A model generated the notes under the pieces. It searched no databases. It saw only the letters and a program-made list of their open reading frames with translations, and was not told where the DNA came from. Shown piece by piece: positions 297-63,909 of a stretch of DNA of 64,000 nt. The stretch is from Campylobacterales bacterium (GTDB lineage: Bacteria; Campylobacterota; Campylobacteria; Campylobacterales; QNZT01). Where the stretch lies: NCBI GenBank assembly GCA_024278835.1, contig JAJRSK010000053.1, positions 1 to 64,000 on the forward strand, written 5' to 3'. The number at the start of each line of letters is the position of its first letter. Positions within the stretch are counted from its first letter, which is position 1. The translations under genes and the position numbers were made by a program.

Positions 297-1250
297 TTAG
301 TTTAATTTCCACATCATGATAACATTATCATCACTCGAAGAAAGAAGTCTATCTTCATCTAAAAAGATGATAGTGTTTAATGTACTTTTTTGCCCTTTTA
401 AAAGTGCGATACGTGACTTTGTTGATATATTGTAAATCGAAATATCATTATCCTCATCCATGGCAAAAGCAACTCTCTTTGCGCTGGGGCTTAAGCCCGT
501 AGCATAGATAAGAAACTTACCTTGTAAAAAATCACCCTTTCCACTCTTAGTATCATACAAAGAACCTTTTCTATCTTGTCCAGCGCCAGAGACAATCCCT
601 TGTTTGAAATCTACTTTATAGACATTGTCAAGATTGATACCTTCTAGGACTTTAACTATTTTACCTGTTTTTGTATCTATGATATTTAATACACCACTTT
701 CACAAGCATATACCGCTCGTGATTTATCTTCGTTAAGTTTGAAATCGGAAAATTTAGATGGGCTCAATTGTACACGATAAAGCTCTTTTTTTGTCTTGAT
801 ATCAAACAAGCCGGCTTCATTTCCTAGATAACCAAATAACACATGTTCTTTATCCACTAACTTTGCCTTTATGATAGCTTTTTTTGATGAATAATCCATA
901 AGCAGTTTGGTTTCATTATTCTCATGCATCCAAAGGTTGGCATAACCACCTTTTCCACTATCACTCAGTAGCAGAAACCTACCATCTATAAAATCAACTG
1001 AAAAAACTTTAGGAGGTATCATATCTCCCATAAAGTCTTTTACTTTTGGCAATGATATCTCTTGAACAAACTCTTTTTTTTCTATATCATAGACTTGTAC
1101 CACACCACAATCTGTAGCAATATAAAGCTTATTAGCTTCTATCATGATATCTTTTACCGTCCCCTTTGCCTCTATCTCTAAAATAGGCGTAACATTCCCT
1201 GCATAACTAGCACAATGAAGCATCAAAGAGAGTATAAAAGCCTTTATCAT
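297..1250 (-). CDS. napL: NapL, periplasmic beta-propeller protein of the nap cluster
   Basis: This 317-residue protein begins with a Sec signal peptide (about residues 1-18, ending SYAG) and then shows repeated blocks of the kind YDxxSGKG, IDTKTGKIVKVLEG and IYNISTKSRIALLKG, typical of WD40/quinoprotein-like propellers. NapL is found in the nap clusters of Campylobacter and Wolinella; its exact biochemical role is not settled. The ATG (1250-1248) lies inside a TATCATGATA palindrome and overlaps the TGA of the preceding gene. Assignment rests on position between napF and napD plus the propeller pattern. Confidence 0.82.
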   Translation of the reverse strand: MIKAFILSLMLHCASYAGNVTPILEIEAKGTVKDIMIEANKLYIATDCGVVQVYDIEKKEFVQEISLPKVKDFMGDMIPPKVFSVDFIDGRFLLLSDSGKGGYANLWMHENNETKLLMDYSSKKAIIKAKLVDKEHVLFGYLGNEAGLFDIKTKKELYRVQLSPSKFSDFKLNEDKSRAVYACESGVLNIIDTKTGKIVKVLEGINLDNVYKVDFKQGIVSGAGQDRKGSLYDTKSGKGDFLQGKFLIYATGLSPSAKRVAFAMDEDNDISIYNISTKSRIALLKGQKSTLNTIIFLDEDRLLSSSDDNVIMMWKLN

Positions 1251-1591
1251 GATAGTGTTTCTTCCATGATGCTTAACATGCTTTTGGCGATACCTGCATC
1301 ATCTAAAGTTGTCATCACACCATACATATCACTCTCATGGGCATAAAAATCTTTATAATCATCACTTTCTTTCAACTTTTCTATCGCCTTTTGCAATCTT
1401 TCTTCACCCAAAGCTTCTTGCAACGCTTCTGTCACATAAATCATATAGTTAAATTCACTTGGGTCAAAAACATCAAATTCATCAGAATCGACATCATCAT
1501 AGTTCTCATCTATCACCAAAAGAAGTCTCACTTCTTCTATTTCTTCTTTTAGTCCTGCTGTGATGCGCGGAAAGTCACTTTTTAAATTCAC
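1247..1591 (-). CDS. Conserved-looking small acidic protein inserted between napF and napL
   Basis: The 114-residue product has no signal peptide, membrane segment or cysteine and is strongly acidic (a DDVDSDEFDVFD-type stretch at residues 32-43). It looks helical in its second half. The start overlaps the napF stop and its own TGA overlaps the napL ATG, so it is translationally locked into the nap operon. It is not one of the standard nap genes I know. A cytoplasmic assembly or chaperone-like role is a guess from position only. Confidence 0.7.
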   Translation of the reverse strand: MNLKSDFPRITAGLKEEIEEVRLLLVIDENYDDVDSDEFDVFDPSEFNYMIYVTEALQEALGEERLQKAIEKLKESDDYKDFYAHESDMYGVMTTLDDAGIAKSMLSIMEETLS

Positions 1592-2115
1592 ATTGCTTCC
1601 TTTTGTTTTATCTGTGTTGCTTCATAGCTGATAGCATTGGTCGGGCATCTACTCTGGCAAAATCCACACCCTGTGCAGAGATTCATATCTATCACGGGAT
1701 TAAACAAGCCATTAAATAAAATAGCATCATCGATACATGGCTCTTTGCATGAAAAACAGATGACATCGTTGTGTGCGACGCAAGCTTCAGTAGAGATAAT
1801 AAAACGCGCATTGATTGTTTCGCTTGTGTGGATGTTATTTAAACTGAGTACATCTGGTTCACATGCTTCTGCACAGGCTTCACAAAATGTACAACCCTTT
1901 TTAGAGAAGTTCAGCATCGGTGTACCATCTGCACGGATTAAAACGATTTCCTCTTCACAAGAAGAAACACAAGCTTTGCTCTCACATACCACACACTCAC
2001 TCTGAAAAAGAGATTCTTCCAATCCATAAGGAGGTCTTACGATAAGTTCTTCCTTCTCAGTAACTTTTTCTAACGGCTTTCTAAAAGCCGTTAGAAAATC
2101 CCTCCTACTCGCCAC
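1588..2115 (-). CDS. napF: NapF, cytoplasmic ferredoxin-type protein
   Basis: This 175-residue protein carries cysteine groups for several 4Fe-4S clusters: CVVCESKAC near residue 40, CTFCEACAEAC near 75, a C-x7-C-x2-C-x3-C group near 112-125 and CTGCGFCQSRCP near 145. An N-terminal SRRDFL stretch resembles a Tat motif, but NapF is usually cytoplasmic and interacts with NapA. The start is GTG (2115-2113), sharing bases with the napB2 stop (TAGTG). NapF is thought to help load or repair the NapA Fe-S centre. Confidence 0.85.
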   Translation of the reverse strand: MASRRDFLTAFRKPLEKVTEKEELIVRPPYGLEESLFQSECVVCESKACVSSCEEEIVLIRADGTPMLNFSKKGCTFCEACAEACEPDVLSLNNIHTSETINARFIISTEACVAHNDVICFSCKEPCIDDAILFNGLFNPVIDMNLCTGCGFCQSRCPTNAISYEATQIKQKEAM

Positions 2116-2888
2116 TACTTCACACCCTCATTGATTGTATCGATGAGATTTGAACTATTTTTACCATCTTTTGAGAGAAAGTCTGGTGTAAAGGTATTTT
2201 CCACAAGTGGCGCACCCGTAGATTGAGGCGCATGACATTGTGAACAGTTAAATCTAGCATTACTCAACTTATCTAGTTTATGTACTACTGTTTTAAAATC
2301 ACTTGTATTTTTTACTGCTTTTCCTTCTTTTACCACAGCACCATTTTTAGCAATCGTTGTGACTGGTCTAAATGAAGCAAAGTGAGATTTAGGAATCGGT
2401 GTTGCACCCATACTTGGCGCAACTTCTGGCATATGACATCCGGTACAAGCATTGTTTCCTATCTTGATAGGTAACATTCCCTCTACATCATGAGGAATCA
2501 TTGGAGGTGCATTTTCATACGCTCTCTCAAACTTTTTTGATGTACCCGCTGCTGCTTTTCCATAAGTAGCCTTTTCACCAACAGTTTCTGATTTCTCCGT
2601 ATAGAGATTTGTCTTTCTTAGTCCTAGTGACTCTTCACTTATTGTACCTTTTGCAGCAGCTATAGATACAACAGCCATCTTGTCCATTTTCTTAACTGCT
2701 ACTTCAAGAACCGGTGTTGTTTCAACCGCTACAGATACAGCTGGTTCAGCTACTACGGGCGTTACAACACCCTGCGCAGCTTTCATCTGCCGTACTATTT
2801 CATTGACTCTATCCATATCCATGGCATGTAAAGAGACAGAAGCAAAAAAAGCTACCAATACGGTTGTACATATTTTTTTTTGTAACAT
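2115..2888 (-). CDS. napB: Second NapB-type diheme cytochrome c with extra N-terminal segment
   Basis: Residues 81-257 match the upstream NapB at 166 of 177 positions, including the CTGCH and CSQCH haem motifs (about residues 148 and 215). Residues 1-22 are a Sec signal peptide ending LHA. Residues 23-80 are unique: a short helix (VNEIVRQMKAAQ) followed by a Pro/Val/Ala linker. NapB passes electrons to NapA in the periplasm. The near identity points to a recent tandem duplication or gene conversion. The extension could change localisation or partner choice. It is followed immediately by napF. Confidence 0.88.
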   Translation of the reverse strand: MLQKKICTTVLVAFFASVSLHAMDMDRVNEIVRQMKAAQGVVTPVVAEPAVSVAVETTPVLEVAVKKMDKMAVVSIAAAKGTISEESLGLRKTNLYTEKSETVGEKATYGKAAAGTSKKFERAYENAPPMIPHDVEGMLPIKIGNNACTGCHMPEVAPSMGATPIPKSHFASFRPVTTIAKNGAVVKEGKAVKNTSDFKTVVHKLDKLSNARFNCSQCHAPQSTGAPLVENTFTPDFLSKDGKNSSNLIDTINEGVK

Positions 2889-2952
2889 TTGAAACCTTTA
2901 TAAAAAATTTTCACAAGAACACCATCAAGAACAGTTGCTCTGGTGAAGATTT

Positions 2953-10692: not shown

Positions 10693-11352
10693 TTATAAAA
10701 AATAGTTAATTATAAAAGAATTATCTTGACCATTACGTTTTGCATACTCTACAATTTTGCCATGAAATTGTGAATAAATTGTGAAAAATGAAACATCTTC
10801 ATTATAAATCTTACTTATCTCACTATAATGTTCTTCTATACCTCGCATCATCCACTCTTGTAAATCATCATAAGAGTCAAATTCATATCCAAATGCCTTC
10901 ATCATCTTGTTAGTATAATTATCAACCACCATCACATCTCTCTGGCAGGCATAACAGAGTATGGCATCAGCACTCTCAAACCCAATCCCCTTTTGCGCAA
11001 GTAGCCACTCCCTAGAGACCGATGCTTTAAAAGAGGTAAAATCACCAAATGACACTAGAATAGCTTCACAAAGTGTATGTAAAACCTTGGCTTTTTTTCT
11101 ATAATATCCACTTGGTTTTATCAGTTCTTCTACTATCATGATAGGAGTTTCTGATAGTATTTCTAAAGAGAGAAGATTAGCGGTTTTAAGATTTTCTAGT
11201 GATGTTTCTACATTTTTCCACTTTGTCTGTTGGGTTAGAACTGCCCCAACAACAACTTCAAAAGTTCCACAATCTGGCCACCAATTTTTAGGTGATTCTT
11301 TTAAGAGATCTAAGTTCTCAAGAGCCAACCAAAGGCTATAACTATTGTTCAT
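10693..11352 (-). CDS. magIII: MagIII, 3-methyladenine DNA glycosylase of the endonuclease III superfamily
   Basis: The 219-residue protein shows the NWWP start region, the GAVLTQQTKW helix, the helix-hairpin-helix REWLLAQKGIGFESADAI (about residues 121-138) and VMVVDNYT with the catalytic Asp. This combination is the Helicobacter MagIII type, not standard Nth. The C-terminal four-cysteine Fe-S cluster of Nth is absent, as in MagIII. It removes alkylated purines. It overlaps the end of the upstream YmdB-type gene by 11 bases. Confidence 0.88.
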   Translation of the reverse strand: MNNSYSLWLALENLDLLKESPKNWWPDCGTFEVVVGAVLTQQTKWKNVETSLENLKTANLLSLEILSETPIMIVEELIKPSGYYRKKAKVLHTLCEAILVSFGDFTSFKASVSREWLLAQKGIGFESADAILCYACQRDVMVVDNYTNKMMKAFGYEFDSYDDLQEWMMRGIEEHYSEISKIYNEDVSFFTIYSQFHGKIVEYAKRNGQDNSFIINYFL

Positions 11353-12157
11353 GATACGCTTGCTGCACGACTATAGCAACACCATCATCATACGCTTTGA
11401 CTTTAAATGCCTCTGTGCATTTTCCCTCACTATTTAGTTCAAAAATGACTGCTTGTAGCATCTTTTTACATTGATTGGGTACATCAAACCGCCCTGAAAC
11501 TCCCGTCAAAAATCTATCTAAGACTTCTTTGACATCCATCCCTAGTGAATTATCCCGGCATCCTGTCATCCCCACATCAGTGACATAAAAAGTACCTTCA
11601 TCTATCGTGACATCATCTGTGCCTACATGAGTATGTGAGCCAACAATGGCAGAAACCCGTCCCTTTAAAAGTGCTAAAAGTGCTCTTTTTTCACTGGTTG
11701 CTTCGGCATGGAAATCTATCATGATATGTTTCACCTCTGCTTCTTCTAATCGCTCCACCACTTCTAGAACTTTCACAAAAGGATTATCCACCATAGGCAT
11801 CGTAAAATGTCCCATGAGATTGATAACGGCTAGTTTCTCTTCACCTACTTGCATCACTTCAATCCCACGACCTGGTGTGGCTTTTGGATAGTTGATAGGA
11901 CGAAGCAGTGGCATATCATCTAGCAAAGGGATGATATCTTTTTTATCCCAAGTATGATTGCCTCCTGTCATAAGGTCTATGGGGAGTTTGAAAAGTTCTT
12001 TGGCATTTTTTGCACTCAGACCAAAGCCATGACTCGCATTTTCATAGTTTACGATAACTACATCCGCCTTGTATTCTCTTTTGATATGAGCAATGTGCTT
12101 TTTTAGCATATCTCTCCTCGGTCGTCCTACGATATCTGCGCAAAATGCTATTCTCAC
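11342..12157 (-). CDS. YmdB-family metallophosphoesterase
   Basis: The 271-residue protein follows the YmdB family throughout: DIVGRPRR near the start, VNYENASHG (about 38-46), GGNHTWD (66-72), IDFHAEATSEK (147-157) and VGSHTHVGTDD (172-182). The Asp, Asn and His residues form the two-metal site. The family hydrolyses 2',3'-cyclic nucleotides and in Bacillus YmdB affects global expression. It runs in one operon with magIII. Confidence 0.9.
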   Translation of the reverse strand: MRIAFCADIVGRPRRDMLKKHIAHIKREYKADVVIVNYENASHGFGLSAKNAKELFKLPIDLMTGGNHTWDKKDIIPLLDDMPLLRPINYPKATPGRGIEVMQVGEEKLAVINLMGHFTMPMVDNPFVKVLEVVERLEEAEVKHIMIDFHAEATSEKRALLALLKGRVSAIVGSHTHVGTDDVTIDEGTFYVTDVGMTGCRDNSLGMDVKEVLDRFLTGVSGRFDVPNQCKKMLQAVIFELNSEGKCTEAFKVKAYDDGVAIVVQQAYHEQ

Positions 12158-12227: not shown

Positions 12228-12233
12228 CTTATC

Positions 12234-13280
12234 ATGATAAGAAAACTTTTAATACTCCCCTTTTTCCTTCTATTCTTCATCGCTTGCCACCAAGTTATAA
12301 ACACTACTTTACCTAAAATCAAAAATGAGAGGGTACTCTTTATAGGGGAGTATCATGATAACTATGCCCATCATATAAATCAAAAAAATATCATTCAAGA
12401 CCTCCATGAAAAAGGATTTAATATCGCTATAGGTATGGAAATGTTTCAAAGACCATTTCAGCAAGTATTGGATGATTATATCTGCGGAAAAATAGATGAA
12501 AAAACCATGCTTCAAAAAAGTGAATATTTTACACGCTGGGGATACGACTATACACTCTACCAACCTATCATGCTAGTTGCTAAGGAAAATCATATCCCCG
12601 TTATCGCACTCAACCTTGAAAAAGAAATCACTAAAAAAATCTCAAAAAAGGGTCTAGAATCTCTCACTAAAGAAGAGAAAAATAAGCTTCCCAAAAGTTT
12701 AGACTTTTCAGATTCAGCATACAAAGAACGCTTAGTCAAAGTTTTTAATGACCCTGAACATTTAGCAGCCATGCCAAAGAAGTACCATCTAAATCCTGAT
12801 TTCCTTTACCAATCACAAATCCTCTGGGATGAAACTATGGCTGAAACAATCGCAAACTATCTTAAAAGCCATCCTCAGACTCTCATGATAGTGTTAGCAG
12901 GTAATGGTCACTTAGCCTATTTTGTCGGGATTCCAAATCGCGTAAAAAGGCGACTGCCACTCCCCATGCGTGTCATCTTGCAAGATAGTGAAAAAGAAAA
13001 AGGCAAAGCTGACCAATATCTCTTTCCTGAAGCTATCATGATAGAACAGACGCCAAAACTTGGCGTTTTGTTATCACCTAAGGGATTGAAAGTGATTGAA
13101 GTTATCAAAGATTCACTAGCGGATAATATAGGCATCAAAGAAGATGATACCCTCATAGCATTTTCTAAAATTCCCATACATAACTTAGCTGATTTAAAGT
13201 TGGCTTTGTATCTTTATCGGAATAAGAAGGATTGGACTGTGAGCGTTAAAAGAGGATCAAAAAAGGTTATATTAAAATGA
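12234..13280 (+). CDS. ChaN-like lipoprotein with C-terminal PDZ domain
   Basis: The 348-residue protein starts with a lipoprotein signal (FFIAC, cysteine near residue 18). A ChaN/Tiki-fold domain covers about 30-255, with FIGEYHDN, GMEMFQR and the late GNGHLAY motif. ChaN proteins bind haem or metal at the outer membrane. Residues about 275-348 form a PDZ domain (LGVLLSPKGLKV, GIKEDDTLIAF). The start at 12234 is taken because it opens the signal peptide; a longer frame upstream overlaps the divergent promoter. The next lipoprotein gene overlaps by ATGA. Confidence 0.82.
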   Translation: MIRKLLILPFFLLFFIACHQVINTTLPKIKNERVLFIGEYHDNYAHHINQKNIIQDLHEKGFNIAIGMEMFQRPFQQVLDDYICGKIDEKTMLQKSEYFTRWGYDYTLYQPIMLVAKENHIPVIALNLEKEITKKISKKGLESLTKEEKNKLPKSLDFSDSAYKERLVKVFNDPEHLAAMPKKYHLNPDFLYQSQILWDETMAETIANYLKSHPQTLMIVLAGNGHLAYFVGIPNRVKRRLPLPMRVILQDSEKEKGKADQYLFPEAIMIEQTPKLGVLLSPKGLKVIEVIKDSLADNIGIKEDDTLIAFSKIPIHNLADLKLALYLYRNKKDWTVSVKRGSKKVILK

Positions 13281-14686: not shown

Positions 14687-15514
14687 TTATAAAAGATCTT
14701 TTTTCTTAAATGCCACATAACCAAAATAGGCAAATATTAACCCTATCATGATAGGATACACAACAGCATAGGCAATCAACATCTTTGATCCCAACGTATC
14801 TAAGAGATAATATGCCACAGGACCAATCACTGTAAGCTCAGGGTCAAACAGGGTAATCGCCCCAATACGGAAAACCTCTATGGGATTTAGCATCGCTAGT
14901 GTCAATATCACTTCATCATTGACTCTATTTTGTAACATCAAGCCTATCAATGCGATATCTATAAATGCCAATAGTATAATCCATACTACAAAGGAACTGC
15001 CAAGTGCAATATCTGTTGATTTGACGATACTAGAGAGGAAAAAAGCGATGCCCAAAAAGACAAAACAAAGTGAAAAAAGAAGCACTGAGTAGAGAAATAT
15101 CATATTCCAAGGTAAATCTCCCCCTTTAAATAGTCCAAAAACCACACCTAAAATCAATGCAAAAAAGACCGGTAAAAAAACGGTTGCAAAACGCCCCAGC
15201 ATTTTTCCCCAATAATAATCTCTAAGAGAAACTGGAAATGAAAGCATATACTCCAAGACATTACTTTCCCTATCACCAGAGATGGATTTTACCGTCGTGA
15301 TCAAGATAAAAATAGGCAAGATAATGATTGTCACTTGTATAAAGATAAGCAACATCCTACTAAGCCCCGTAAATCCAAGCACCACAGCATCAGAGACACC
15401 AGTGATAAAAAAGAGAGCCATCAACCCACCAAAGACCAATGCATACACATAAAACCATTTTGAGCGCAAAGACTCTTTGATATCTAGATAAGCGATTAGC
15501 AAAAGATTTTTCAT
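14687..15514 (-). CDS. nosY: NosY, ABC transporter permease of the nos system
   Basis: The 275-residue polytopic membrane protein has about six helices and the ABC-2 pattern (SISGDRESNVLEYMLSFP near 84-101). NosY pairs with NosF to form an exporter whose partner is NosD; together they are needed to assemble the CuZ centre of NosZ. The ATG overlaps the nosL stop (TAATG). Confidence 0.93.
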   Translation of the reverse strand: MKNLLLIAYLDIKESLRSKWFYVYALVFGGLMALFFITGVSDAVVLGFTGLSRMLLIFIQVTIIILPIFILITTVKSISGDRESNVLEYMLSFPVSLRDYYWGKMLGRFATVFLPVFFALILGVVFGLFKGGDLPWNMIFLYSVLLFSLCFVFLGIAFFLSSIVKSTDIALGSSFVVWIILLAFIDIALIGLMLQNRVNDEVILTLAMLNPIEVFRIGAITLFDPELTVIGPVAYYLLDTLGSKMLIAYAVVYPIMIGLIFAYFGYVAFKKKDLL

Positions 15515-15984
15515 TATTGTGCCCCTACTTTTTGTACATTGAGATTTTCAATCACAAATACTTTTTTTGCCATCTCATCAAAATTGATAGTATGGTGATT
15601 TTTTGGCACTGTTTCTTGTGCATATGCCGCAAAACCAAATGCCATAGGTGTGATGGAATCATCCGTATAGATAGCCTTTTTGGCATCTATCCAAGTGCCT
15701 GTCTTCGCATCCGTAATCCAAATCTTGGCTTGATCTTTCCAAGAAATGTGTTCATCATCAAACCACAAAAGTGCACATCCGATATCATCAAATTTATAAC
15801 TTTTATCCGTTTTTGGATTGATAACCTGTACTGCATATTTACGCTCACTAATTGCCATCTTACAGCGTTCACACATATCACGATCCCAGTGCATTTTATC
15901 CACAGAGCCCCGAGGCTTTTTATCACATGCTCCCAAAGAAAACACTATCATGATAGCAGCAAAAAGAACACTAAATCCTCTCAT
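15514..15984 (-). CDS. nosL: NosL, copper-binding lipoprotein
   Basis: The 156-residue protein has a lipobox ending SLGAC (cysteine 20) and the metal site CERCKM (C38, C41, M43). The FDDIGCALLW strand and a TWIDAKKAIY segment are typical of NosL. It donates copper for NosZ assembly at the membrane. It overlaps the end of nosF by 14 bases, so the operon order here is nosF-nosL-nosY. Its signal peptide contains the Ile-Met-Ile encoded by a TATCATGATA copy. Confidence 0.93.
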   Translation of the reverse strand: MRGFSVLFAAIMIVFSLGACDKKPRGSVDKMHWDRDMCERCKMAISERKYAVQVINPKTDKSYKFDDIGCALLWFDDEHISWKDQAKIWITDAKTGTWIDAKKAIYTDDSITPMAFGFAAYAQETVPKNHHTINFDEMAKKVFVIENLNVQKVGAQ

Positions 15985-18639: not shown

Positions 18640-19426
18640 TTTGTTTTCCCTTCCCATAAATATCTGCATATGTAGCACTAGGTACGATTTCTAGTACATT
18701 TGTCGGGCAAAGTTCTACACATGCACCACAACCAACACATGCTTCCCTAATCTCCGGTATCAATCCACCATCTTTACTCACCATACCGATGGCATCTTTA
18801 GGATCTGGATGAAATGGGCATAAATCAGCACATATAGTACAAGCCTCACCTCTAAACTTTTCCAAATCTTCTAATATTTTTTTTTGTAACTCTTCTTTTT
18901 CATTTTCATCCCCACGCATTATCACTTTGTGTGCCTGACGCTCTTCTTGTGTCAATATGTGTGTATGATTATATATCTTGTCTATAGCACTTGGGGGTAC
19001 AGGCTGATTTCTAAGTGCCAGACATGCACTCTCATTGACGATAACTGCCATACCCATATGTACATATTTTATCGCATCTTTTTCATGATCTAATGCCCCT
19101 GTAGGACAAGCTAAGATACACGGGAATGCTTCACAAAGATAACAACCTCTTTTGGTCGGATCTATATATGCCATGCCCATGCTTGCCCCACCATCTATAT
19201 CCTCAAGCAGTATAGAATCATAAGGGCAGACTTGTAAACATTGTCCACATTTGATACAAAGTTTTAAAAAATCTTCTTCACTTACTGCCCCAGGTGGGCG
19301 TAACAGTAACTCATCTGCTTTAAGATTAGGTGCAAAATAAATACCCCCTCCCGCAGCCAAGCCCAATACACCAAGCCCAGTGATATTTTTTATAAAATCT
19401 CTTCTTTTTTTCTCTTTTGCTGTCAT
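18632..19426 (-). CDS. nosG: NosG, Tat-exported polyferredoxin of the nos cluster
   Basis: The 264-residue protein has a Tat motif (RRDFIKN near residue 8) and NapG-like cysteine clusters: CIKCGQCLQVCP near 57, CYLCEAFPCILACP near 93, CTICADLCP near 194 and CVGCGACVELCP near 233. It acts on the outer face with NosH. nosC1 overlaps its 3' end by 8 bases and its own ATG overlaps the nosD stop. Confidence 0.93.
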   Translation of the reverse strand: MTAKEKKRRDFIKNITGLGVLGLAAGGGIYFAPNLKADELLLRPPGAVSEEDFLKLCIKCGQCLQVCPYDSILLEDIDGGASMGMAYIDPTKRGCYLCEAFPCILACPTGALDHEKDAIKYVHMGMAVIVNESACLALRNQPVPPSAIDKIYNHTHILTQEERQAHKVIMRGDENEKEELQKKILEDLEKFRGEACTICADLCPFHPDPKDAIGMVSKDGGLIPEIREACVGCGACVELCPTNVLEIVPSATYADIYGKGKQNG

Positions 19427-20640
19427 AATACCTTCCCCTCTTTCATTTTAGGATGTTCGTCTGTCAATAGCTTAATTGGTTCGGAAATCGGTGCCAATTT
19501 TGCAAGAAAATTGAGTATCGAAATCACAGGCGAACCATAAAAGAATTTTACATTTGGATTTAAAAGCCACAATTTATCTGCATAATAGTAGAGATTGTGG
19601 GCTGTATCGCCTATGCCATTACCATCTTTGTCAAATCCTTCATAATCATCCCAATAGTTATTATCCCAAATATTTTCAGTCACCTTTGTATTGTATGAGT
19701 CATTGACCACCGTTTCGATGTTCCCTTTTATCACATTGCCAATAAATTTATTATGTAGACTCAAGGAGTGAAAATGTATCCCTTCACTATTATAAAGGAT
19801 ATAATTGCCCTCTATATCATTGGTCGTATCAGGTTCAAAAGGGGATCTATCGATATAAAGACCTCTAGCACAGTACAAAATCTTATTCTCTTTAATCGTA
19901 TAATTAGAACAATCTTTCATACCAATCCCTAGTCCCGTTGTTCCAAGCGAATTTTTGATGATATTGCCTGTGGCAATCGTATCTTGCGAATACATGAAAA
20001 ATATTCCCACGGAATTATGCGTAAACTCATTGTCTTTTACAATGTTTTTTCCCGTATACATAAAGTGCAAGGAGTATCTACCAAACTCAGCATAATTTTT
20101 TTCGATGAGATTACCATGAGAATACCACACTACAAAATCTCTCGCTTTAGTAATATGATTATTTTGCAAGGTATTGTCATTGCTATACCAAAGTCTAATG
20201 GCATCTCCTCTAAGCCCTAAAGAAAATGGCTTAGAAGTGATAAAATTGTTACTGACATTTGATTCATCTGTTTCTTGTAAATCTATTCCAAATAAAACAT
20301 CTTCTAAATGGCAATTAATCACGGCACAATGGTGTACCTTGTTAAGAGAAATTGCAGCATCTACCCGTTCATGCTCTGCACCACTATGTATGATACTAAG
20401 GTTCTTAAGTGTTACAAAAGGGCTCTTGATGGTAATTACTGTACCATTACCATCACCCTTAATCACTGCTTTTTGATTTTTCCCATCGATAATTAATGGT
20501 TTATCGATGACAATATTACCTTCGTATACCCCTGCTGGTAACTCAAGTTTTGAACCTTCTTTTGCCTGATCTATAGCATCCTGCAGTACATTGGCATGAA
20601 GCGACAATGTTAAAAAAAAGAGTACAAAAACTTTTATCAT
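19423..20640 (-). CDS. nosD: NosD, periplasmic parallel beta-helix protein
   Basis: The 405-residue protein has a short Sec signal (MIKVFVLFFLTLSLHA) and many right-handed beta-helix repeats of the kind ENNxI, NSNDNTLQNNHI and GNYILYNSEGIH (about residues 90-320). NosD is needed with NosF and NosY to build the CuZ cluster of NosZ. The ATG is inside a TATCATGATA palindrome, with only a weak upstream ribosome site. Confidence 0.94.
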   Translation of the reverse strand: MIKVFVLFFLTLSLHANVLQDAIDQAKEGSKLELPAGVYEGNIVIDKPLIIDGKNQKAVIKGDGNGTVITIKSPFVTLKNLSIIHSGAEHERVDAAISLNKVHHCAVINCHLEDVLFGIDLQETDESNVSNNFITSKPFSLGLRGDAIRLWYSNDNTLQNNHITKARDFVVWYSHGNLIEKNYAEFGRYSLHFMYTGKNIVKDNEFTHNSVGIFFMYSQDTIATGNIIKNSLGTTGLGIGMKDCSNYTIKENKILYCARGLYIDRSPFEPDTTNDIEGNYILYNSEGIHFHSLSLHNKFIGNVIKGNIETVVNDSYNTKVTENIWDNNYWDDYEGFDKDGNGIGDTAHNLYYYADKLWLLNPNVKFFYGSPVISILNFLAKLAPISEPIKLLTDEHPKMKEGKVL

Positions 20641-20651
20641 GATAAGTCTTT

Positions 20652-24324: not shown

Positions 24325-24993
24325 ATGATAAGCCAATCCATCCATATCCTCATCCTAGAAGATGACACCCTTTTTGCGGAGAGTTTAGAAGACTTTTTAG
24401 AAGAAGAGGGATTTTTTATCACCCTTGCACATGATGGTGAAAAAGCGTTGGAACTAGCCTACGAAAAGTATTTTGATTTGTTGTTACTGGATGTCAATGT
24501 ACCTAAACTCACGGGTTTTGAGTTTCTATCTCATTTGCGAGAAAGACAACAAAATACACCTGCTATCTTCATCACCTCATTTAAAGATAAGCAAAGTATC
24601 AAAAAAGGCTTTCTACAAGGGGCGGATGACTATCTCACAAAACCTGTAGATTTAGATGAATTGTTATTGCGTATTGTAGCTTTGCTGCGACGCTGCCACA
24701 AACTAGAGGAGTCTATCATGATAGGCACTGCCATCTTCTATCCCAAAAAGGGAATCATTCACTCCCAAGGAGAGAAATATCAACCATCCAAAAAAGTTAT
24801 TTTACTCTTAGAACTCCTTATAGCACATCAAAATACTATCGTTTCCACTGAACGTATCTATGCGCATCTATGGGCTTGGGATGAGACACCTAGCCCCTCC
24901 TCTTTGCGTGTTTATATCAATGATCTCAAGAAGATATTAGGCAAAGAGCATATCATCAATCATAAAGGCATAGGATATAAACTTGCACTCTAA
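24325..24993 (+). CDS. OmpR-family response regulator divergent from nosZ
   Basis: The 222-residue protein has a receiver domain (about 1-120) with the acidic pair in LILEDD, the phosphoacceptor Asp in LLLLDVNVPK (near 53) and the conserved Lys in YLTKPVD. The C-terminal winged helix covers about 130-220 (SLRVYINDLKKILG, HKGIGYKLAL). It pairs with the histidine kinase that overlaps it. Targets are unknown; nosZ and its own accessory operon are the obvious candidates. Confidence 0.9.
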   Translation: MISQSIHILILEDDTLFAESLEDFLEEEGFFITLAHDGEKALELAYEKYFDLLLLDVNVPKLTGFEFLSHLRERQQNTPAIFITSFKDKQSIKKGFLQGADDYLTKPVDLDELLLRIVALLRRCHKLEESIMIGTAIFYPKKGIIHSQGEKYQPSKKVILLLELLIAHQNTIVSTERIYAHLWAWDETPSPSSLRVYINDLKKILGKEHIINHKGIGYKLAL

Positions 24994-30954: not shown

Positions 30955-30980
30955 CAAATCTTCTATCATGATAACTATGC

Positions 30981-41543: not shown

Positions 41544-42157
41544 GATAGCTTCCTTCCCCTTGCATGGTATAGCATCAGTAGTAAAGTTGAAAGTATCGTT
41601 TGAGGTCTGGTATTTAACTCTGCTAAGAGTAAAGATTTATTAAAAAGTACCAACTCACTCTCTCTTAATTTTATCTTTGCCCCAATCAATGAAACTTTTA
41701 ACATTGTTTCAATCGTATCTTTTAAAACAATTTTTGAGATATTTTTATTTTTCTTTAAAAAGTTAAAAATATCCCCTAATTCCATCTTCGCGATATCAAT
41801 TTCCAAGACAAATGGCTCTTTCTCAAATGCCACACTCTCTATCTGCATACGTGAGCGAATGGTTGGTAAAAGAGCAGTTTTAGACTTTGCAATGAGGATA
41901 AAAACGATATTGCGTGGTGGTTCTTCTAAGAGTTTTAAAAGGGCATTTTGCGCTTCTATACGATACGTTGTAGCTACGATGATGAGATGTTTTATGCTCT
42001 CTTCTGCTATATAGGCTTCCCTCATCACCATCTTGGCATCATCAACTTTAAACTCATCACTAAAGTAGACTTTTGTCAGCTTAGAGTCTATACTGGAAAG
42101 TATCTGATTCTTTGCATACTCCATGTCCGCACAGGTCACAATCTTCGCTTCCATCAA
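41540..42157 (-). CDS. holB: DNA polymerase III delta' subunit, short form
   Basis: The 205-residue protein keeps the AAA+ core of delta': EAYIAEESIKHLIIVATTYRIEAQ, then ALLKLLEEPPRNIVFILIA and a LPTIRSRMQ segment (sensor 1 to arginine-finger region). It lacks the Walker A and zinc motifs of longer forms, which is normal for delta' in this phylum. It loads the sliding clamp with DnaX and HolA. It is overlapped at both ends by hobA and folP. Confidence 0.85.
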   Translation of the reverse strand: MMEAKIVTCADMEYAKNQILSSIDSKLTKVYFSDEFKVDDAKMVMREAYIAEESIKHLIIVATTYRIEAQNALLKLLEEPPRNIVFILIAKSKTALLPTIRSRMQIESVAFEKEPFVLEIDIAKMELGDIFNFLKKNKNISKIVLKDTIETMLKVSLIGAKIKLRESELVLFNKSLLLAELNTRPQTILSTLLLMLYHARGRKLS

Positions 42158-44444: not shown

Positions 44445-45500
44445 ATGCTTCTCTACTTACACATTCCTTTTTGCGATAGCAAGTGTCACTATTGTGCCTT
44501 CAACTCTTATACCCATTTGCATCACCTCAGAAAAGCATATATGTCAGCTATCATGATACAGTTAGAAAGCGAATTTGAACGCTTTGAGGTGACTAAGAAC
44601 TCTATAGAAACACTCTTCATTGGAGGAGGCACACCCTCTTGTGTCTCAGCACAAGAGTATAAGCCATTTTTTGATTTTATCTCTCCTTTTCTTGCAGCAG
44701 ATGCAGAGATAAGCACCGAAGCAAATCCAAACTCAGCCACTTTTACATGGCTACAAGGGATGTATGACTTAGGTGTCAATCGTGTTAGTTTTGGTGTACA
44801 AAGTTTTAACGTAGAGAAACTTAAACGTTTAAACCGGAACCACACTCCTTCTGATGCCCGGCAAGCTATACAAAATGCCAAAAATATAGGCTTCAAAAAT
44901 CTCTCTCTAGATTTGATATATGGCACAGACATCGATACACAAGCTCTTTTATTGCACGATATCGAAACGGCATTTTCTCTACCTATCAACCATATAAGTG
45001 CTTATTCGCTTACTATTGAGGAGGGGACAAAGTTTTTTGAGACACCAGAGGTCGCACACGATGATGAGTCACAGGCTTTCTGGTTTGTCAAAGAGATAGA
45101 AAAAAGAGGTTTTCAAAGTTACGAAATCTCTAACTTTGGCACATATCAGTCAAAACACAACCGAGGTTATTGGGAGTATAAAGATTATTTAGGAGTTGGT
45201 TCAGGTGCCGTTGGGTTTTTAAAAGATACGCGTTTTTACACACAAAGTGATGTGCATGCCTATATCAAAGACCCTCTAAATATCACTATCGAAGCACTAA
45301 ATGAAGAAGATATAAAAAATGAGAAAATTCTTCTGGGACTTCGCTCCAATGTAGGATTTTCAGAAAGTATACTCAGTCATGATGAACGTCAAAAAGCCCA
45401 ACATCTTATAGAAGAGAAAAAAATCACCTACCATGATAAGAGATATTATAATAATGACTTTTTTCTATCTGATGAACTCACACTCTATATTACTAGCTAA
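44445..45500 (+). CDS. hemW: HemW-type radical SAM haem chaperone
   Basis: The 351-residue protein begins LLYLHIPFCDSKCHYCAFNSY with the C-x3-C-x2-C cluster of radical SAM enzymes. It then has ETLFIGGGTPS, EANPNS, NRVSFGVQSF and GYWEYKDYLGVGSGAVGF. This fits HemW, a haem-delivery protein, rather than true coproporphyrinogen oxidase HemN. ATG 44445 follows AAAAGGTG and a TATACT element at 44411. The upstream neighbour rppH is divergent. Confidence 0.88.
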   Translation: MLLYLHIPFCDSKCHYCAFNSYTHLHHLRKAYMSAIMIQLESEFERFEVTKNSIETLFIGGGTPSCVSAQEYKPFFDFISPFLAADAEISTEANPNSATFTWLQGMYDLGVNRVSFGVQSFNVEKLKRLNRNHTPSDARQAIQNAKNIGFKNLSLDLIYGTDIDTQALLLHDIETAFSLPINHISAYSLTIEEGTKFFETPEVAHDDESQAFWFVKEIEKRGFQSYEISNFGTYQSKHNRGYWEYKDYLGVGSGAVGFLKDTRFYTQSDVHAYIKDPLNITIEALNEEDIKNEKILLGLRSNVGFSESILSHDERQKAQHLIEEKKITYHDKRYYNNDFFLSDELTLYITS

Positions 45501-47654: not shown

Positions 47655-48675
47655 CCCTAACCCTCTTCTGGTAGACTCGTATGACTATACTCTACCAGAA
47701 GAGTTGATTGCTTCTTCTCCTGCTGTCCCTAAAGACTCGGCAAAACTCTTGGTTTATAACCGTCAAACTGATACGATCACCCATGCTACGTTTAGAGATA
47801 TCCACTCTTTTATTCCACAAGATACAACGATAGTGTTAAATGATACCAAAGTGATAAAAGCAAGAATTTTTGGTGAAAAAAAGAGCGGTGGGAAAGTAGA
47901 ATTACTCATCAATACTCCTTTAGAAAATAATCAATTTTTAGTCTATATCAGAGGACGTGTAAAACTCACCACACAGCTCTATTTTGAAGATGGCTTAATC
48001 GCCAATATTTTAGCCCTCAATACAGACGGCACCCGAGTAGTTAACTTCTATCATGATAAGAAAAAGTTAGACTTTGAGAGCCTAAATATCATACTAAATA
48101 AAATCGGTCATATTCCACTACCTTCTTATATCAAAAGAGAAGACTCCAAAGAAGATGAAAAAGATTATCAAACACTCTTTGCTAAAAAGATAGGTGCCGT
48201 AGCAGCACCTACTGCTTCTTTGCATTTTACAGAAGCACTTTTCAAAGAGGTAAAAGAGAACTTTAATGCACATTTTATTACCCTACACGTGGGGGCTGGG
48301 ACATTTAAACCTGTTGAATGTAAACAGATTAAAGAACATGTGATGCATAAAGAGTTTTTTGATATTCCTGCCAAAACAGAAGCATTGCTAAAAAGTGATA
48401 AAAATATCTTAGCCGTGGGCACAACCGTCACACGTACTATAGAATACTACGCTAGAGAAAAAAAAGTACATGGGGAGTCAGATCTCTTTTTACACCCGGA
48501 GAACAGACCCCTTCGTGTGACGCATCTCTTAACCAATTTCCATTTACCAAAGTCAACACTACTTATGCTAGTAGCTAGTTTTGTGGGGCTTGAAAAGGCT
48601 CTTTCTCTTTATGAAGAGGCAATCAAACAAGAGTATAAATTTTATTCGTATGGTGATGCCATGCTGATACTATAA
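47647..48675 (+). CDS. queA: QueA, S-adenosylmethionine:tRNA ribosyltransferase-isomerase
   Basis: The 342-residue enzyme has DYTLPEELIA near the start, LNDTKVIKARIFG, GHIPLPSYIKRED, AAPTASLHFTEAL, LHVGAGTFKPV and the NFHLPKSTLLMLVASF motif. It makes epoxyqueuosine in tRNA. A TATCATGATA copy encodes Tyr-His-Asp near residue 136. It is overlapped by tatC at its start. Confidence 0.96.
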   Translation: MPSPNPLLVDSYDYTLPEELIASSPAVPKDSAKLLVYNRQTDTITHATFRDIHSFIPQDTTIVLNDTKVIKARIFGEKKSGGKVELLINTPLENNQFLVYIRGRVKLTTQLYFEDGLIANILALNTDGTRVVNFYHDKKKLDFESLNIILNKIGHIPLPSYIKREDSKEDEKDYQTLFAKKIGAVAAPTASLHFTEALFKEVKENFNAHFITLHVGAGTFKPVECKQIKEHVMHKEFFDIPAKTEALLKSDKNILAVGTTVTRTIEYYAREKKVHGESDLFLHPENRPLRVTHLLTNFHLPKSTLLMLVASFVGLEKALSLYEEAIKQEYKFYSYGDAMLIL

Positions 48676-48683
48676 GGATTGAA

Positions 48684-49028
48684 ATGATTACGATATATGG
48701 CATTAAAAACTGTGACTCGGTGAGAAAAGCAATAAAATATATGAAAAGTAATGATTTAACATATCAGTTTGTTGACTTTAGAGAAACACCCATTGATGAA
48801 AAAAAAATAGCCTTATGGCTTGAAAAAGTCTCTATAGACACACTATTTAACAAACGTGGAACAACATATAGAAGTTTAAAATTAAAAGAGTTAAACCTGA
48901 GTGATGAGGAAAAGGAAGCATGGCTATCTAAAGAATATATGCTTATAAAACGTCCTGTTCTTGAGTATCATGATAAAGTCATAGTTGGCTTTAATGAGGC
49001 AGTTTATGATACAACGTTTACAGGATAA
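48684..49028 (+). CDS. ArsC/YffB-family thioredoxin-fold protein
   Basis: The 114-residue protein shows YGIKNCDSVRKAIKYM with a single active cysteine (residue 9), RETPIDEKKI and LIKRPVLEY. This is the YffB/Spx-type branch, usually annotated as arsenate reductase-like; whether it reduces arsenate is doubtful. AAGGATTG precedes the ATG. Its end overlaps the convergent methyltransferase gene by 11 bases. Confidence 0.85.
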   Translation: MITIYGIKNCDSVRKAIKYMKSNDLTYQFVDFRETPIDEKKIALWLEKVSIDTLFNKRGTTYRSLKLKELNLSDEEKEAWLSKEYMLIKRPVLEYHDKVIVGFNEAVYDTTFTG

Positions 49029-49446
49029 AGGGAATAATCATCTTTGTTCTCTTTTTGTATGCTAAGTAATCTTCATGATGATTGCTCCAAAGCTTCTCTT
49101 CTTTAAAGGCTTTGAGTGAAACTGCTACTATCATGATACAAAGAGCAAGAACATTGATGACATTAAAATGCCACAGTACAATTCCCAAGACAAACAAAAT
49201 CAAAGAACTATACATAGGGTGTCTTACATAACGATAAGGACCTGTCACAATCAGTTTTGCATTGTCTCTTATCTCAGGCACGACATTAAAATTACCTACT
49301 CTGTTATGTGCAAATATCCATAATGCTGTAACCGTAGCAATGCACAGCAATACCCACCAAAATGGTATTATCATGATAGAGGATTTGGGTATCATGATAA
49401 CAAATATAGCCAAGAACTGTATCCCTACTAAGACCAAAGAATTCAT
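49018..49446 (-). CDS. Isoprenylcysteine-methyltransferase-like membrane protein
   Basis: The 142-residue protein has about four helices and the motifs KLIVTGPYRYVRHPMYSS (about 63-80) and EEKLWSNHHEDYLAYKKRTK, typical of phospholipid/ICMT-type S-adenosylmethionine methyltransferases. Substrate is unknown. It overlaps ruvX by four bases. Three TATCATGATA copies lie within it, each encoding Ile-Met-Ile, the highest density in the window. Confidence 0.78.
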   Translation of the reverse strand: MNSLVLVGIQFLAIFVIMIPKSSIMIIPFWWVLLCIATVTALWIFAHNRVGNFNVVPEIRDNAKLIVTGPYRYVRHPMYSSLILFVLGIVLWHFNVINVLALCIMIVAVSLKAFKEEKLWSNHHEDYLAYKKRTKMIIPFIL

Positions 49447-49826
49447 CGACTAAGCCACCGATCAAGTATAATCTGCGCAGCGATAGAGTCCACCTTACCG
49501 TCACGTTTTTGTTTTACTTTGCCTTTCATCATCTCTTTCGCTTCCCCACTACTACCATACTCATCATGATAAAAAACTTCACCAGAAAATTCTAATAAAG
49601 AGACAAAGTGTTCTATACGCCTTGTCATCTCTGCTTCACTACTACCACCCTTTGGCAGACCAACCACAAGCGTTTTTATCTCCCATTCTATAAGCATAGC
49701 ATCTACATCTCTTGCTGCTTGATTTCTATTTTTTCTCAAAATGGAAGTTTGTGGAACAACTATCTTTTCATCCAAACGTATTGCCACCCCGATACGTTTT
49801 AATCCGACATCAATCGCGGCTATCAT
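49443..49826 (-). CDS. ruvX: RuvX/YqgF family Holliday-junction resolvase
   Basis: The 127-residue RNase H-fold protein has AAIDVGLKRIGVAI at the start (catalytic Asp 5), TLVVGLPKGG and FYHDEYGSSGEAKEM, ending with KVDSIAAQIILDRWL. Family members process 16S rRNA ends or resolve junctions. The ATG is inside a TATCATGATA palindrome that also supplies the dprA stop. Confidence 0.88.
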   Translation of the reverse strand: MIAAIDVGLKRIGVAIRLDEKIVVPQTSILRKNRNQAARDVDAMLIEWEIKTLVVGLPKGGSSEAEMTRRIEHFVSLLEFSGEVFYHDEYGSSGEAKEMMKGKVKQKRDGKVDSIAAQIILDRWLSR

Positions 49827-50587
49827 GATAAGCTCACTTTAAGATTTTTGATAGTGATTTTTCCTTCTAACTCTAACTCATATATCTTATCACCAAACTT
49901 TTCTAAACTTTCTGCCAGCGTGGGAGTAGATTTAAAAAAGACCAACTCACCAAGCTCTTCTTCTGTTATCTTACCAAACTTTGCGATAAAATCATCGATA
50001 TTTGTGATGATTTCTGCATGCCCCTCACGCAGTAGTTTTTGTGTGCCGAGACTTTCTCCCACACGTTGTGCAAGGACATAAATCTTTTTGCCCATCTCTA
50101 TGGCTATTTCCGCACTCCTCATAGTACCAGAGTTTTCATCCGCCTCTGTGATAATCAACACCTCTCCCAAAGCCACCACGATACTATTTCGTATCACAAA
50201 AGTATACTTTGTCGCACGCATCGTTACTTCATATTCACTCAGAACCAAAGCCTCTTTTTGCATCGCCTGTATCAACTTTTTATTGACAGCTGGATAGGCG
50301 ATATCTAGTGAATTTGCCATCACGGCTATGGTATTGGGAAATGCACCATGATGAGACACAGCATCTACACCCATCGCTGCACCACTCACGACTACGATAC
50401 ATAAACTTGAAAATTTTTCTGCTAGTTCTCTTGTCTTCTCTTTAGTATATTGACTAGGACGACGTGTGCCTACAATAGAAATTTTTCTTTTTTCTAAAAA
50501 AGTTTGATTCCCTATAGCATAAAGCTGGGCAGGTGGTTTTTTTAGTTTAGCTAAAGAGTTGGGGATAGTACAAAGTTTTTCAATCAT
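49823..50587 (-). CDS. dprA: DprA, DNA-processing protein for natural transformation
   Basis: The 254-residue protein has the Rossmann-like core KISIVGTRRPSQYT, VVSGAAMGVDAVSHHGAF, VMANSLDIAYPAVN and ITEADENSGTMRSAEIAIEMGK. DprA loads RecA on incoming single-stranded DNA. N- and C-terminal extra domains are short, as in this phylum. It overlaps ruvX and the yibQ-like gene by four bases each. Confidence 0.93.
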   Translation of the reverse strand: MIEKLCTIPNSLAKLKKPPAQLYAIGNQTFLEKRKISIVGTRRPSQYTKEKTRELAEKFSSLCIVVVSGAAMGVDAVSHHGAFPNTIAVMANSLDIAYPAVNKKLIQAMQKEALVLSEYEVTMRATKYTFVIRNSIVVALGEVLIITEADENSGTMRSAEIAIEMGKKIYVLAQRVGESLGTQKLLREGHAEIITNIDDFIAKFGKITEEELGELVFFKSTPTLAESLEKFGDKIYELELEGKITIKNLKVSLS

Positions 50588-52640: not shown

Positions 52641-53675
<1,035 letters not shown>

Positions 53676-58394: not shown

Positions 58395-58507
58395 TTTTAT
58401 CCTTCGTAAGTTTTATTATTATTTATTATATCCTAAATGCTAACGCTTATCTAGGAGTTAATTAGGGTTATTTAATCTATCATGATAGATTATTTCAATT
58501 TGTAACA

Positions 58508-61090: not shown

Positions 61091-61120
61091 GTTATCATGA
61101 TAGGCAGCTATCATGATAAC
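61091..61120. terminator. 13-bp hairpin made of two TATCATGATA copies
   Basis: GTTATCATGATAG and CTATCATGATAAC are perfect complements with a GCAG loop, so both arms contain the window's iterated palindrome. It lies exactly between two convergent genes and touches the repressor stop codon (CTA at 61120-61122). It has no T-run. Confidence 0.6.
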
Positions 61121-61773: not shown

Positions 61774-61801
61774 TTATAGGCTCCTTTACTATTTTTCAAA
61801 G

Positions 61802-61910: not shown

Positions 61911-61994
61911 ATGACTACATTATTAAACATCATAGACCAACTATTAACAGTGATTGAAAACTCAGTATTAAAGATTAATGAGCTTGTACTTTAA
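61911..61994 (+). CDS. 27-residue leader-like peptide before the Y-family polymerase
   Basis: An ATG with AAAAGGATTT at good distance opens a 27-codon frame (starting MTTLLNIIDQLL, ending VLKINELVL) that stops 5 bases before the polymerase ATG. The peptide is hydrophobic and amphipathic with heptad-like leucines. The polymerase ATG itself has no ribosome site, so translational coupling through this peptide is likely. No family recognised; it could also be a small membrane peptide in its own right. Confidence 0.55.
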   Translation: MTTLLNIIDQLLTVIENSVLKINELVL

Positions 61995-61999
61995 CTATC

Positions 62000-63262
62000 A
62001 TGATAATGCATCTGGATTTAGATGCATTTTTTGCATCAGCTGAACGGATAGGTAATCCTCACTTAGATAATATACCTATCGCTGTAGGTGGAAGGGCTGA
62101 TCCTTTTATCTTTGATAAAACAGCAAAAAGCAAAAAGGTCACTTTGGATAATGCTGGGGCATTTGTCCCTACCCTTTTTCACAGAGAAATAGCTGCCAAT
62201 TTTGAGGGCTATTTTAAAGAGAAAGAGAAGATACGTGGCATCATAGTCACCTCCTCCTACGAAGCCCGTGCCTTTGGCATCAAAACAGCCATGCCACTAG
62301 CCCAAGCACTCAAACTCTGCCCTCATCTCACCATCTGCCTGCCTCGCCATCATCTCTATCATGAACTCTCCCATAAACTCAAACTCTTTTTAGAAACAAA
62401 GATACCTTCTGTGGAACAGTATAGTATTGATGAGTTTTTTGCTGATGTAAGTGGATGGATAAAAGATGATGAGATTGAAGCATTTGCCAAAGGATTAAAA
62501 AAAGAGATTTTAGAAGAGTTTTCTCTACCTATCTCCATAGGTGTTGCCAAGACAAAGTGGCTGGCTAAGCTCTCCACTAACTTTGCTAAACCTGATGGCG
62601 TAAAACTCTTAAAGCCAGAAGATATCTCCTCTTTTATCCATGATATCCCCATAGAAGAATTCCCTGGAATTGGCAAAGCCACCCAAAAAAAACTTCACCA
62701 TTATCAGAAAAAAACCCTAGGTGATATAGAAAACTCAAAAAACCTTTTGTACTCATGGGGAAATAGTGGCAAAGTCCTTTATGATAGAGTTTGTGGCTTA
62801 GATCATGATCTTATAGAGCATAAAAGGGATAGAAAATCCATCGGTATTTCACGTACCTTTGATACCATAGACGATAGAACTGAAATAAAACGACGACTCA
62901 CTATCCTTTCTCGTCACCTCATATTTTTAGTTTCTAAACTACATTTACATCCCAAAACACTTTTTGTAGGTATTCGTTACCAGTATCAGTCAAGTAAAAA
63001 ACAGATAAGTTTTGAGAGGTTACTGCATGAAGATTTTTTACTAAAGAAAAGCTTAGAGGTTTTTGAAGAACTAGATATATATCCTAAAAGCAGCGTTATT
63101 CGTTTAAGCATATCGCTGACTAATTTTCAAGAAAATCCTATAAAATATCCCTCACTTTTTGACTATGCAGACGACCGAATATCGCATAAACTAACAGAGA
63201 AAACACAAAAGATGCGAGAAAAATATGGCGTGGATATCATCAAGAGAGGGTCTGAGTTGTAG
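62000..63262 (+). CDS. Y-family translesion DNA polymerase with internal insertion
   Basis: The 420-residue protein has the palm motifs HLDLDAFFAS (Asp 6 and 8 region), SSYEARAFGIKTAMP and YSIDEFFADVSG, a helix-hairpin-helix FPGIGKATQKKL and a little-finger domain (about 290-390). Between AVGGR (about 32) and GIIVTSSYE (about 80) is an extra stretch of roughly 45 residues not found in standard DinB. The start could be ATG 62000 or 62006. It is preceded by the 27-residue peptide and probably controlled by the S24 repressor. Confidence 0.88.
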   Translation: MIMHLDLDAFFASAERIGNPHLDNIPIAVGGRADPFIFDKTAKSKKVTLDNAGAFVPTLFHREIAANFEGYFKEKEKIRGIIVTSSYEARAFGIKTAMPLAQALKLCPHLTICLPRHHLYHELSHKLKLFLETKIPSVEQYSIDEFFADVSGWIKDDEIEAFAKGLKKEILEEFSLPISIGVAKTKWLAKLSTNFAKPDGVKLLKPEDISSFIHDIPIEEFPGIGKATQKKLHHYQKKTLGDIENSKNLLYSWGNSGKVLYDRVCGLDHDLIEHKRDRKSIGISRTFDTIDDRTEIKRRLTILSRHLIFLVSKLHLHPKTLFVGIRYQYQSSKKQISFERLLHEDFLLKKSLEVFEELDIYPKSSVIRLSISLTNFQENPIKYPSLFDYADDRISHKLTEKTQKMREKYGVDIIKRGSEL

Positions 63263-63283
63263 AGGATGCCCTTAAGCACCCTC
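63262..63283. terminator. Hairpin between polymerase and hpf genes
   Basis: GAGGATGC and GCACCCTC pair with one mismatch across a CCTTAA loop. A second small dyad, GGCTT-AATA-AAGCC, overlaps the hpf stop. Both lie between convergent genes. No T-run. Confidence 0.45.
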
Positions 63284-63290
63284 CAAAGGC

Positions 63291-63836
63291 TTAATAAAGC
63301 CCGAATTTATTATCTTTTCTTTTGTAAAGTACGCGTGTTTTATCATCCTTATCGTTAAAAATCAAAAATTGCTGATTGGTATCTTTTATCATCTCTAACG
63401 CTTCTTCGATATCAAGTGGCTTATACAAATCAAGTTCCATAGGGATGATTTCATCTGTATCTGCTTCGATATTGTCTTCGATATCTTCTGGCTCTAAAAA
63501 GTTGAGATTCCCAAAGTCTGTAATCTTCGTGACTCTATGACCTACCTCTTTATCATGATAGCGTCTAAGTACCTTCATCGCACGGTCTGTTGCTAAGTCT
63601 ATCGCAGCATATAAATCTTTATCTTTTTGCTTGATAACTACGGCTGTTTTTTGTGGTAAGTTTAGATTTAAATCTACCGTAAAACCCTTTTTCCCGTTTC
63701 TCTCATCCGCGGCAACAACTACCCTTGTTGAGATGATATCAAGATTAAATTTCTTTAAACTATCCACTGAATGTTCTATATGCGTTCTTATCGCATCTGT
63801 CATATCTAGCTGTCTTGCAGCAACACTTAAGTTCAT
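63291..63836 (-). CDS. hpf: Long-form ribosome hibernation promoting factor
   Basis: From ATG 63836 the product is 181 residues. The N-terminal HPF/RaiA fold (about 1-100; MNLSVAARQLDMTDAIRTHIE) is joined by an acidic linker to a C-terminal dimerisation domain (about 125-181, with the LYKPLDIEEALEMI and FLIFND segments). Long HPF forms 100S ribosome dimers in stationary phase. GGGGAAAAT precedes this ATG; a 13-codon longer frame begins within a TATCATGATA copy and lacks a ribosome site. Confidence 0.9.
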   Translation of the reverse strand: MNLSVAARQLDMTDAIRTHIEHSVDSLKKFNLDIISTRVVVAADERNGKKGFTVDLNLNLPQKTAVVIKQKDKDLYAAIDLATDRAMKVLRRYHDKEVGHRVTKITDFGNLNFLEPEDIEDNIEADTDEIIPMELDLYKPLDIEEALEMIKDTNQQFLIFNDKDDKTRVLYKRKDNKFGLY

Positions 63837-63909
63837 ATTTTCCCCTTTCAATATTGGAATAATATACCTTATCATGATACCTAAACTTATGTTTAATTTT
63901 TATTAAAAT

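Follow-up and report, generated by a model that had tools for sequence, protein, structure and literature searches.

What accounts for the recurrence of one ten-letter perfect palindrome, TATCATGATA, throughout a bacterial genome? The question is raised by the first 64,000 nucleotides of contig JAJRSK010000053.1 (GenBank assembly GCA_024278835.1, a member of the Campylobacterales), a stretch referred to here as the window, in which a preliminary description had counted 36 copies and likened them to a highly iterated palindrome (HIP). An exact recount returned the same 36 copies, the first beginning at position 1140 and the last ending at 63879, whereas 100 dinucleotide-preserving shuffles averaged 0.15 and never exceeded 2, and an order-2 Markov model predicts ~0.4.

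Enrichment of a single palindrome in one genus

The genome from which the window comes (G000; 2.508 Mb in 77 contigs) contains 1549 copies of TATCATGATA versus 7 of the same string reversed, a density of 0.62/kb or one copy per 1.6 kb. This is the pattern that defines the HIP class: a single short palindrome in gross genome-wide excess, at about 0.5-2.5 per kb. The k-mer statistics come from 985 kb of G000 and, for its sole sampled congener G001, from 798 kb; comparisons within the genus involve two genomes, of which G001 is 89% complete, genes are simple open reading frame calls, and outgroup sampling is patchy. In the 985 kb of G000, order-2 Markov expectations were exceeded by TATCATGATA (624 versus 5.8), by ATCATGAT (761 versus 65), and by the 12-mer CTATCATGATAG (231 versus ~0.2). 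No other palindromic 8-, 10- or 12-mer in these 985 kb showed comparable enrichment, and the remaining palindromes of these lengths lay close to expectation in a 414 kb subset. The base flanking TATCATGATA was C in 61% and T in 25% of cases, in agreement with the weak pyrimidine/purine flank noticed earlier, and positions further out carried little information. The over-representation is genuine and exceeds what the preliminary description claimed; the genome-wide count and the comparison with other palindromes that it had proposed as checks yielded neither a number near the Markov expectation nor a second palindrome of similar abundance. TATCATGATA was not found as a described element in the literature searched.

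A survey of 399 genomes of the order gave a median of 4 copies of TATCATGATA per genome and a 95th percentile of 20. Extreme counts occurred only in G000 and G001 (1009 copies), followed by a member of another family, G056 (166), and by G006 (88) and G021 (66). The same 10-mer is also the top palindrome in G001 and G056, and high iteration is confined to one genus. As a separate observation, two tetranucleotides are strongly depleted in the 414 kb sample of G000 (GATC, 470 versus 1509 expected; GGCC, 108 versus 625), while GATC in G001 is at expectation (1494 versus 1504); we read the depletion in G000 as lineage-specific restriction avoidance.

Origin, placement and conservation of the copies

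Copies of TATCATGATA in coding sequence were confined to the two stop-free frames, which read Ile-Met-Ile (276 copies) or Tyr-His-Asp (166 copies), the same two readings reported for the window. A bias in codon, amino-acid or AT usage might be suspected for a motif that is 80% AT in a genome of 38% GC. However, the excess persists against shuffles and Markov models, and a synonymous-codon shuffle within genes left only 77 of the 442 coding copies. Density was also about two-fold higher outside genes (1.05/kb) than inside them (0.54/kb), and it rose with GC content, from 0.11/kb below 32% GC to ~0.65 at 36-40% and 1.17 above 42%. The scarcity in AT-rich bins runs counter to composition, because an AT-rich string should be favoured there. 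We therefore ruled out such a bias, to which we assign a negligible chance of being the explanation, and the earlier statement that codon preference does not suffice holds.

The pressure is on the DNA, and it overrides both codon and amino-acid choice. Ile-Met-Ile is the second commonest tripeptide in G000, and 288 of its 296 occurrences are encoded by ATCATGATA; it ranks 26th in G001 (~76 per 100,000) and 1908th (17 per 100,000) in the order relative G056. The Met of this tripeptide was matched in outgroup proteins at 9% of 54 sites, compared to 46% for Met generally, indicating that the motif has been written over other residues. A DNA-level pressure strong enough to shape the tripeptide spectrum matters for the interpretation of proteins of this genus.

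Because only 1 indel was found among 77 aligned coding copies, these copies are products of substitution, not of insertion. This result contradicts the suggestion that the repeat might be a selfish micro-palindrome acting as an inserting element. The same genome does encode a Y1, IS200/RAYT-like transposase (PF01797; L079:13017-13793), and insertion by a transposase of the kind associated with repetitive extragenic palindromes (REP/RAYT) would be one source of a mobile repeat, but coding copies swap residues without a change in length and their flanks contain no longer shared unit. We rejected this origin for the coding copies and consider it extremely improbable overall.

Within the window, the Ile-Met-Ile frame is occupied by the copies at 1140-1149 (in the coding sequence 297-1250, reverse strand), 11134-11143, 11717-11726 (a YmdB-like gene), 12230-12239, 13034-13043, 14744-14753, 15946-15955, 24714-24723, 29049-29058, 32495-32504, 41103-41112 (a pterin-binding enzyme gene), 44549-44558, 49129-49138 and 53424-53433, and by two close pairs, 25462-25471 with 25489-25498 and 49369-49378 with 49390-49399. 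The Tyr-His-Asp frame is used at 12351-12360, 32209-32218 (a SpoU methylase gene), 33853-33862 (mraW), 48049-48058 (queA), 48966-48975 and 63551-63560. Intergenic copies lie at 26633-26642, 30964-30973 and 58478-58487, and as a pair between convergent genes at 61093-61102 and 61109-61118. Gene edges carry the remainder: 41538-41547 is at the overlapping start and stop of two genes, 49821-49830 lies where dprA meets its neighbour, and several copies, here and elsewhere, span a start codon (TATC-ATG-ATA, giving a Met-Ile N-terminus). The latter are found at 1245-1254 (the central ATG starts 297-1250), 20635-20644 (19423-20640, reverse strand), 25024-25033 (ATG at 25028), 61996-62005 (62000-63262, forward strand) and 63870-63879 (63291-63875, reverse strand). 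Of 624 sampled copies in the genome, 60 lie on gene edges.

The density per kb of spacer was 1.9 between convergent, 1.7 between codirectional and 1.4 between divergent genes. Close pairs were only about two-fold above expectation, and about half of the pairs less than 60 bp apart fall within genes. A role as terminator or promoter was set aside on the basis of these similar spacer densities and the intragenic location of so many pairs.

Genes differ in how readily they carry the site: density was 0.32/kb in the most conserved quartile of genes and 0.48-0.98/kb in the other quartiles. The preliminary description had remarked that copies are missing from conserved genes, and the fall in density supports this in part; the gaps of 9.9 and 7.3 kb in the window, on the other hand, are ordinary for random spacing. 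Gap sizes were not significant on their own and were discarded as proof of avoidance: gaps longer than 5 kb make up 2.6% of those in the genome, compared to 4.1% expected at random. The largest stretches free of TATCATGATA include a surface-sugar island with NeuB and a CRISPR Cmr/RAMP locus; conserved genes, among them recA and eno, fall in such stretches as well. The island (L029:1-11619) has a GC content of 31%, encodes NeuB and a cytidylyltransferase, and contains no copy. The distribution is thus one of core-genome bias, scarcity in acquired DNA and preference for permissive positions, as in repeats of the DNA uptake sequence (DUS) and uptake signal sequence (USS) type.

To follow individual sites between the two species, we used protein-guided alignments, with 10-mers of the same composition in the same frames as controls. 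Exact conservation in G001 was found for 22 of 76 coding sites (29%), compared to 7.1% of control 10-mers (p=4e-8). Interspecies divergence is near saturation at synonymous positions (dS ~1.8 for the methyltransferase gene described below); sites therefore turn over, yet are held well above the neutral level. A figure of 40-47% obtained with blastn was set aside in favour of the protein-guided 29%, since the motif may itself seed alignments.

One-base deviations from TATCATGATA pile up at the outermost positions (CATCATGATA, 104 versus ~9 expected; TGTCATGATA, 40 versus ~4), as they do in the HIP class. Variants of the inner TCATGA were rarer relative to expectation, the highest being TATTATGATA (23) and TATCTTGATA (36). 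A possible dialect difference was also seen: the 798 kb of G001 are relatively richer in TGTCATGATA (68) and GATCATGATA (31), and G000 in CATCATGATA.

A palindrome that is strictest inside and graded in its outer bases would suit the binding site of a dimeric protein, and its quasi-uniform spread over the genome would suit selection for sites of a genus-specific chromosome-organizing, replication or regulatory protein. Known chromosome organizers, however, use far fewer sites than the ~1550 found here, most of which lie within genes. The preference among convergent, codirectional and divergent spacers is mild, and AT-rich islands lack the site. We regard selection by such a protein as unlikely.

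A solitary D12 methyltransferase and the CATG centre

The centre of TATCATGATA is CATG. G000 and G001 share an adenine methyltransferase (MTase) of the D12 family (PF02086; 333-336 aa), which adjoins selO in both: the G000 copy (336 aa) is at L051:1495-2505, and the G001 copy (L052) is 78% identical to it. The gene is under purifying selection, with a nonsynonymous divergence (dN) of 0.15 and a synonymous divergence (dS) of 1.8. At 11 fetched loci, relatives of this enzyme adjoin an IceA-family protein (PF05315; 5e-121 in the tested case), and most of these loci also carry an accessory MTase. IceA1 and its neighbour hpyIM constitute an NlaIII-like CATG system in Helicobacter pylori (PMC13340068, PMC4687069), and it is on the basis of family and neighbourhood that CATG is the probable target of the D12 enzyme. 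Neither G000 nor G001 yielded an IceA hit, and the D12 MTase is accordingly solitary in both. The suggestion that the palindrome is a methylase site can be narrowed in this light to its centre: CATG would be the sequence recognized by an orphan D12 MTase, and relatives of that MTase stand beside IceA/NlaIII.

Two side observations concern these neighbourhoods. G006, the genome with 88 copies of TATCATGATA, has an apparently complete CATG restriction-modification cassette (C47:27811-30272) consisting of an accessory MTase, IceA and a D12 MTase. In addition, a protein of 207-221 aa with no Pfam or NCBIfam match lies beside a CATG-type D12 MTase in 20 loci, many from Flavobacteriia (for example, L211:9241-9906 and L151:8459), and is a candidate for an unrecognized nuclease partner.

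Other methyltransferases were considered as drivers. Genes for type I-like N6_Mtase (PF02384) are present in G000 and G001 alike, which would allow the long palindrome itself, and not CATG, to be recognized by a type I or an uncharacterized enzyme. Type I targets, however, are bipartite. Two C5 MTases are present in G000 only; C5 and PF01555 MTases were rejected as drivers because none were found in G001 (89% complete). No solitary Type II-like MTase other than the D12 enzyme was found in both species, and recognition of the whole palindrome by another MTase appears very unlikely.

The D12 family was detected in 105 of the 399 genomes of the order. Eight of the nine genomes with at least 35 copies of TATCATGATA have it, compared to 26% overall (p=1e-4, kinship ignored). 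The enzyme looks necessary for the repeat and insufficient alone.

Candidate mechanisms and known systems

We tentatively favour, as a possibility, that YTATCATGATAR serves as a mark of self-DNA, HIP-like and genome-wide, that is read through methylation and spread by a molecular drive of uptake and recombination. The D12 MTase, kept vertically without an NlaIII/IceA partner, would methylate the centre of the palindrome as Cm6ATG. By analogy with methylated RAATTY in Campylobacter jejuni, methylated copies of TATCATGATA might then be recognized as self by a DNA uptake and recombination route involving ComEC and DprA. Fragments with an exact site would be preferentially taken up and recombined, so that exact sites would spread by molecular drive in the manner of DUS and USS until offset by mutation and by the purifying selection that acts on proteins. 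We favour this reading because of the DUS-like distribution of the copies, the precedent of the methylase CtsM in C. jejuni, and the presence of both ComEC and DprA. The uptake signal that the preliminary description listed among possible roles is plausible in view of the core bias, the permissive positions and these two competence genes. The dprA gene, a transformation recombination mediator whose occurrence in the window had been reported correctly, lies at 49823-50587 on the reverse strand (PF02481, 2e-53) and is given for context only.

Several points weigh against a self-DNA mark. Relatives that lack the repeat have ComEC equally, and to our knowledge all known DUS and USS are non-palindromic. 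Most genomes with the D12 MTase also lack the repeat, and median counts of TATCATGATA are the same with and without it (4 versus 4), so that the enzyme is at best necessary. Its CATG specificity is a prediction from family and neighbourhood, a random palindromic 4-bp centre would equal CATG about one time in 16, and the cross-genome p-value (8/9 versus 26%) ignores phylogeny. Finally, other MTases exist, namely the type I-like genes of both species and the two C5 enzymes of G000.

Biased repair or gene conversion could produce the same repeat as a functionless by-product, if a nuclease or repair enzyme acting at methylated or hemimethylated CATG resolved mismatches toward the full palindrome. 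In cyanobacteria, HIPs contain the targets of resident orphan methylases, and methylation-guided repair by MutS/MutL has been proposed as their source (Elhai 2015, PMC4390886). The probable MTase target nested in TATCATGATA and the outermost deviations resemble HIP1 in this respect, the sites originate by substitution, and foreign islands are site-poor, as accumulation over time predicts. However, MutL (PF01119) had no match in G000, G001 or G056, whereas the same search was positive in 11 of 14 control genomes, and Vsr was not found in the same three genomes. The published MutS/MutL-dependent model of HIP1 is therefore inapplicable as stated. No candidate enzyme was found for another version, and most genomes with the MTase lack the repeat. 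We consider biased repair rather unlikely.

With considerable doubt, the self-DNA mark can be extended to a history in which a lineage without MutL evolved a palindromic mark: a former restriction methylase of CATG specificity may label the DNA, the competence machinery may select it, and the resulting drive may have rewritten hundreds of protein sites in one genus. Relatives with the same methylase but without the repeat make cause and effect testable, in that they pose the question of which extra factor triggers a highly iterated palindrome.

Each of the systems invoked above resembles TATCATGATA in part. The NlaIII/HpyI (iceA1-hpyIM) restriction-modification system has an MTase of the same family, and the combination of D12 MTase and IceA/NlaIII HNH nuclease occurs at the 11 loci of relatives and in G006, but the MTase of G000 and G001 is solitary and the nuclease is missing. 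In C. jejuni, transformation depends on CtsM acting at RAATTY (PMC8627207); as here, an adenine MTase without a nuclease partner is found together with competence genes, in the same phylum. The target of CtsM differs from the predicted CATG: RAATTY is a degenerate 6-mer that occurs commonly (~28,000 times in C. coli) and not a highly iterated 10-mer. The DUS of Neisseriaceae and USS of Pasteurellaceae are similar in copy number, density and bias toward the core genome and permissive sites, and neisserial DUS are likewise poor in low-GC acquired DNA and conserved despite permissive surroundings (PMC2397512). Unlike these oriented cores, TATCATGATA is a perfect palindrome with a putative methylase target inside it, has no known receptor, and has a role in uptake that is putative.

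The closest likeness is to HIP1 (GCGATCGC) and the alternate HIPs (PMC4390886): all are short palindromes that recur about once per 1-2 kb, within genes and between them, with deviations at the outermost positions, a sporadic phylogenetic presence and an orphan methylase target nested centrally, which for TATCATGATA is the predicted CATG. TATCATGATA is not HIP1 in the strict sense, which is GCGATCGC in a cyanobacterium; it is AT-rich with a CATG centre, belongs to one genus of the Campylobacterota, and is associated with an adenine MTase of the CATG family in genomes where no MutL was found, so that the MutS/MutL repair model is excluded. There has been no agreement on what HIP1 does, and the principal molecular model for it relies on mismatch repair. 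TATCATGATA thus provides a second, sequence-independent HIP-like case, in another phylum, in a MutL-less genome and in a single genus; if it is a self-DNA mark, it would unite HIP1-type and DUS-type repeats under one mechanism.

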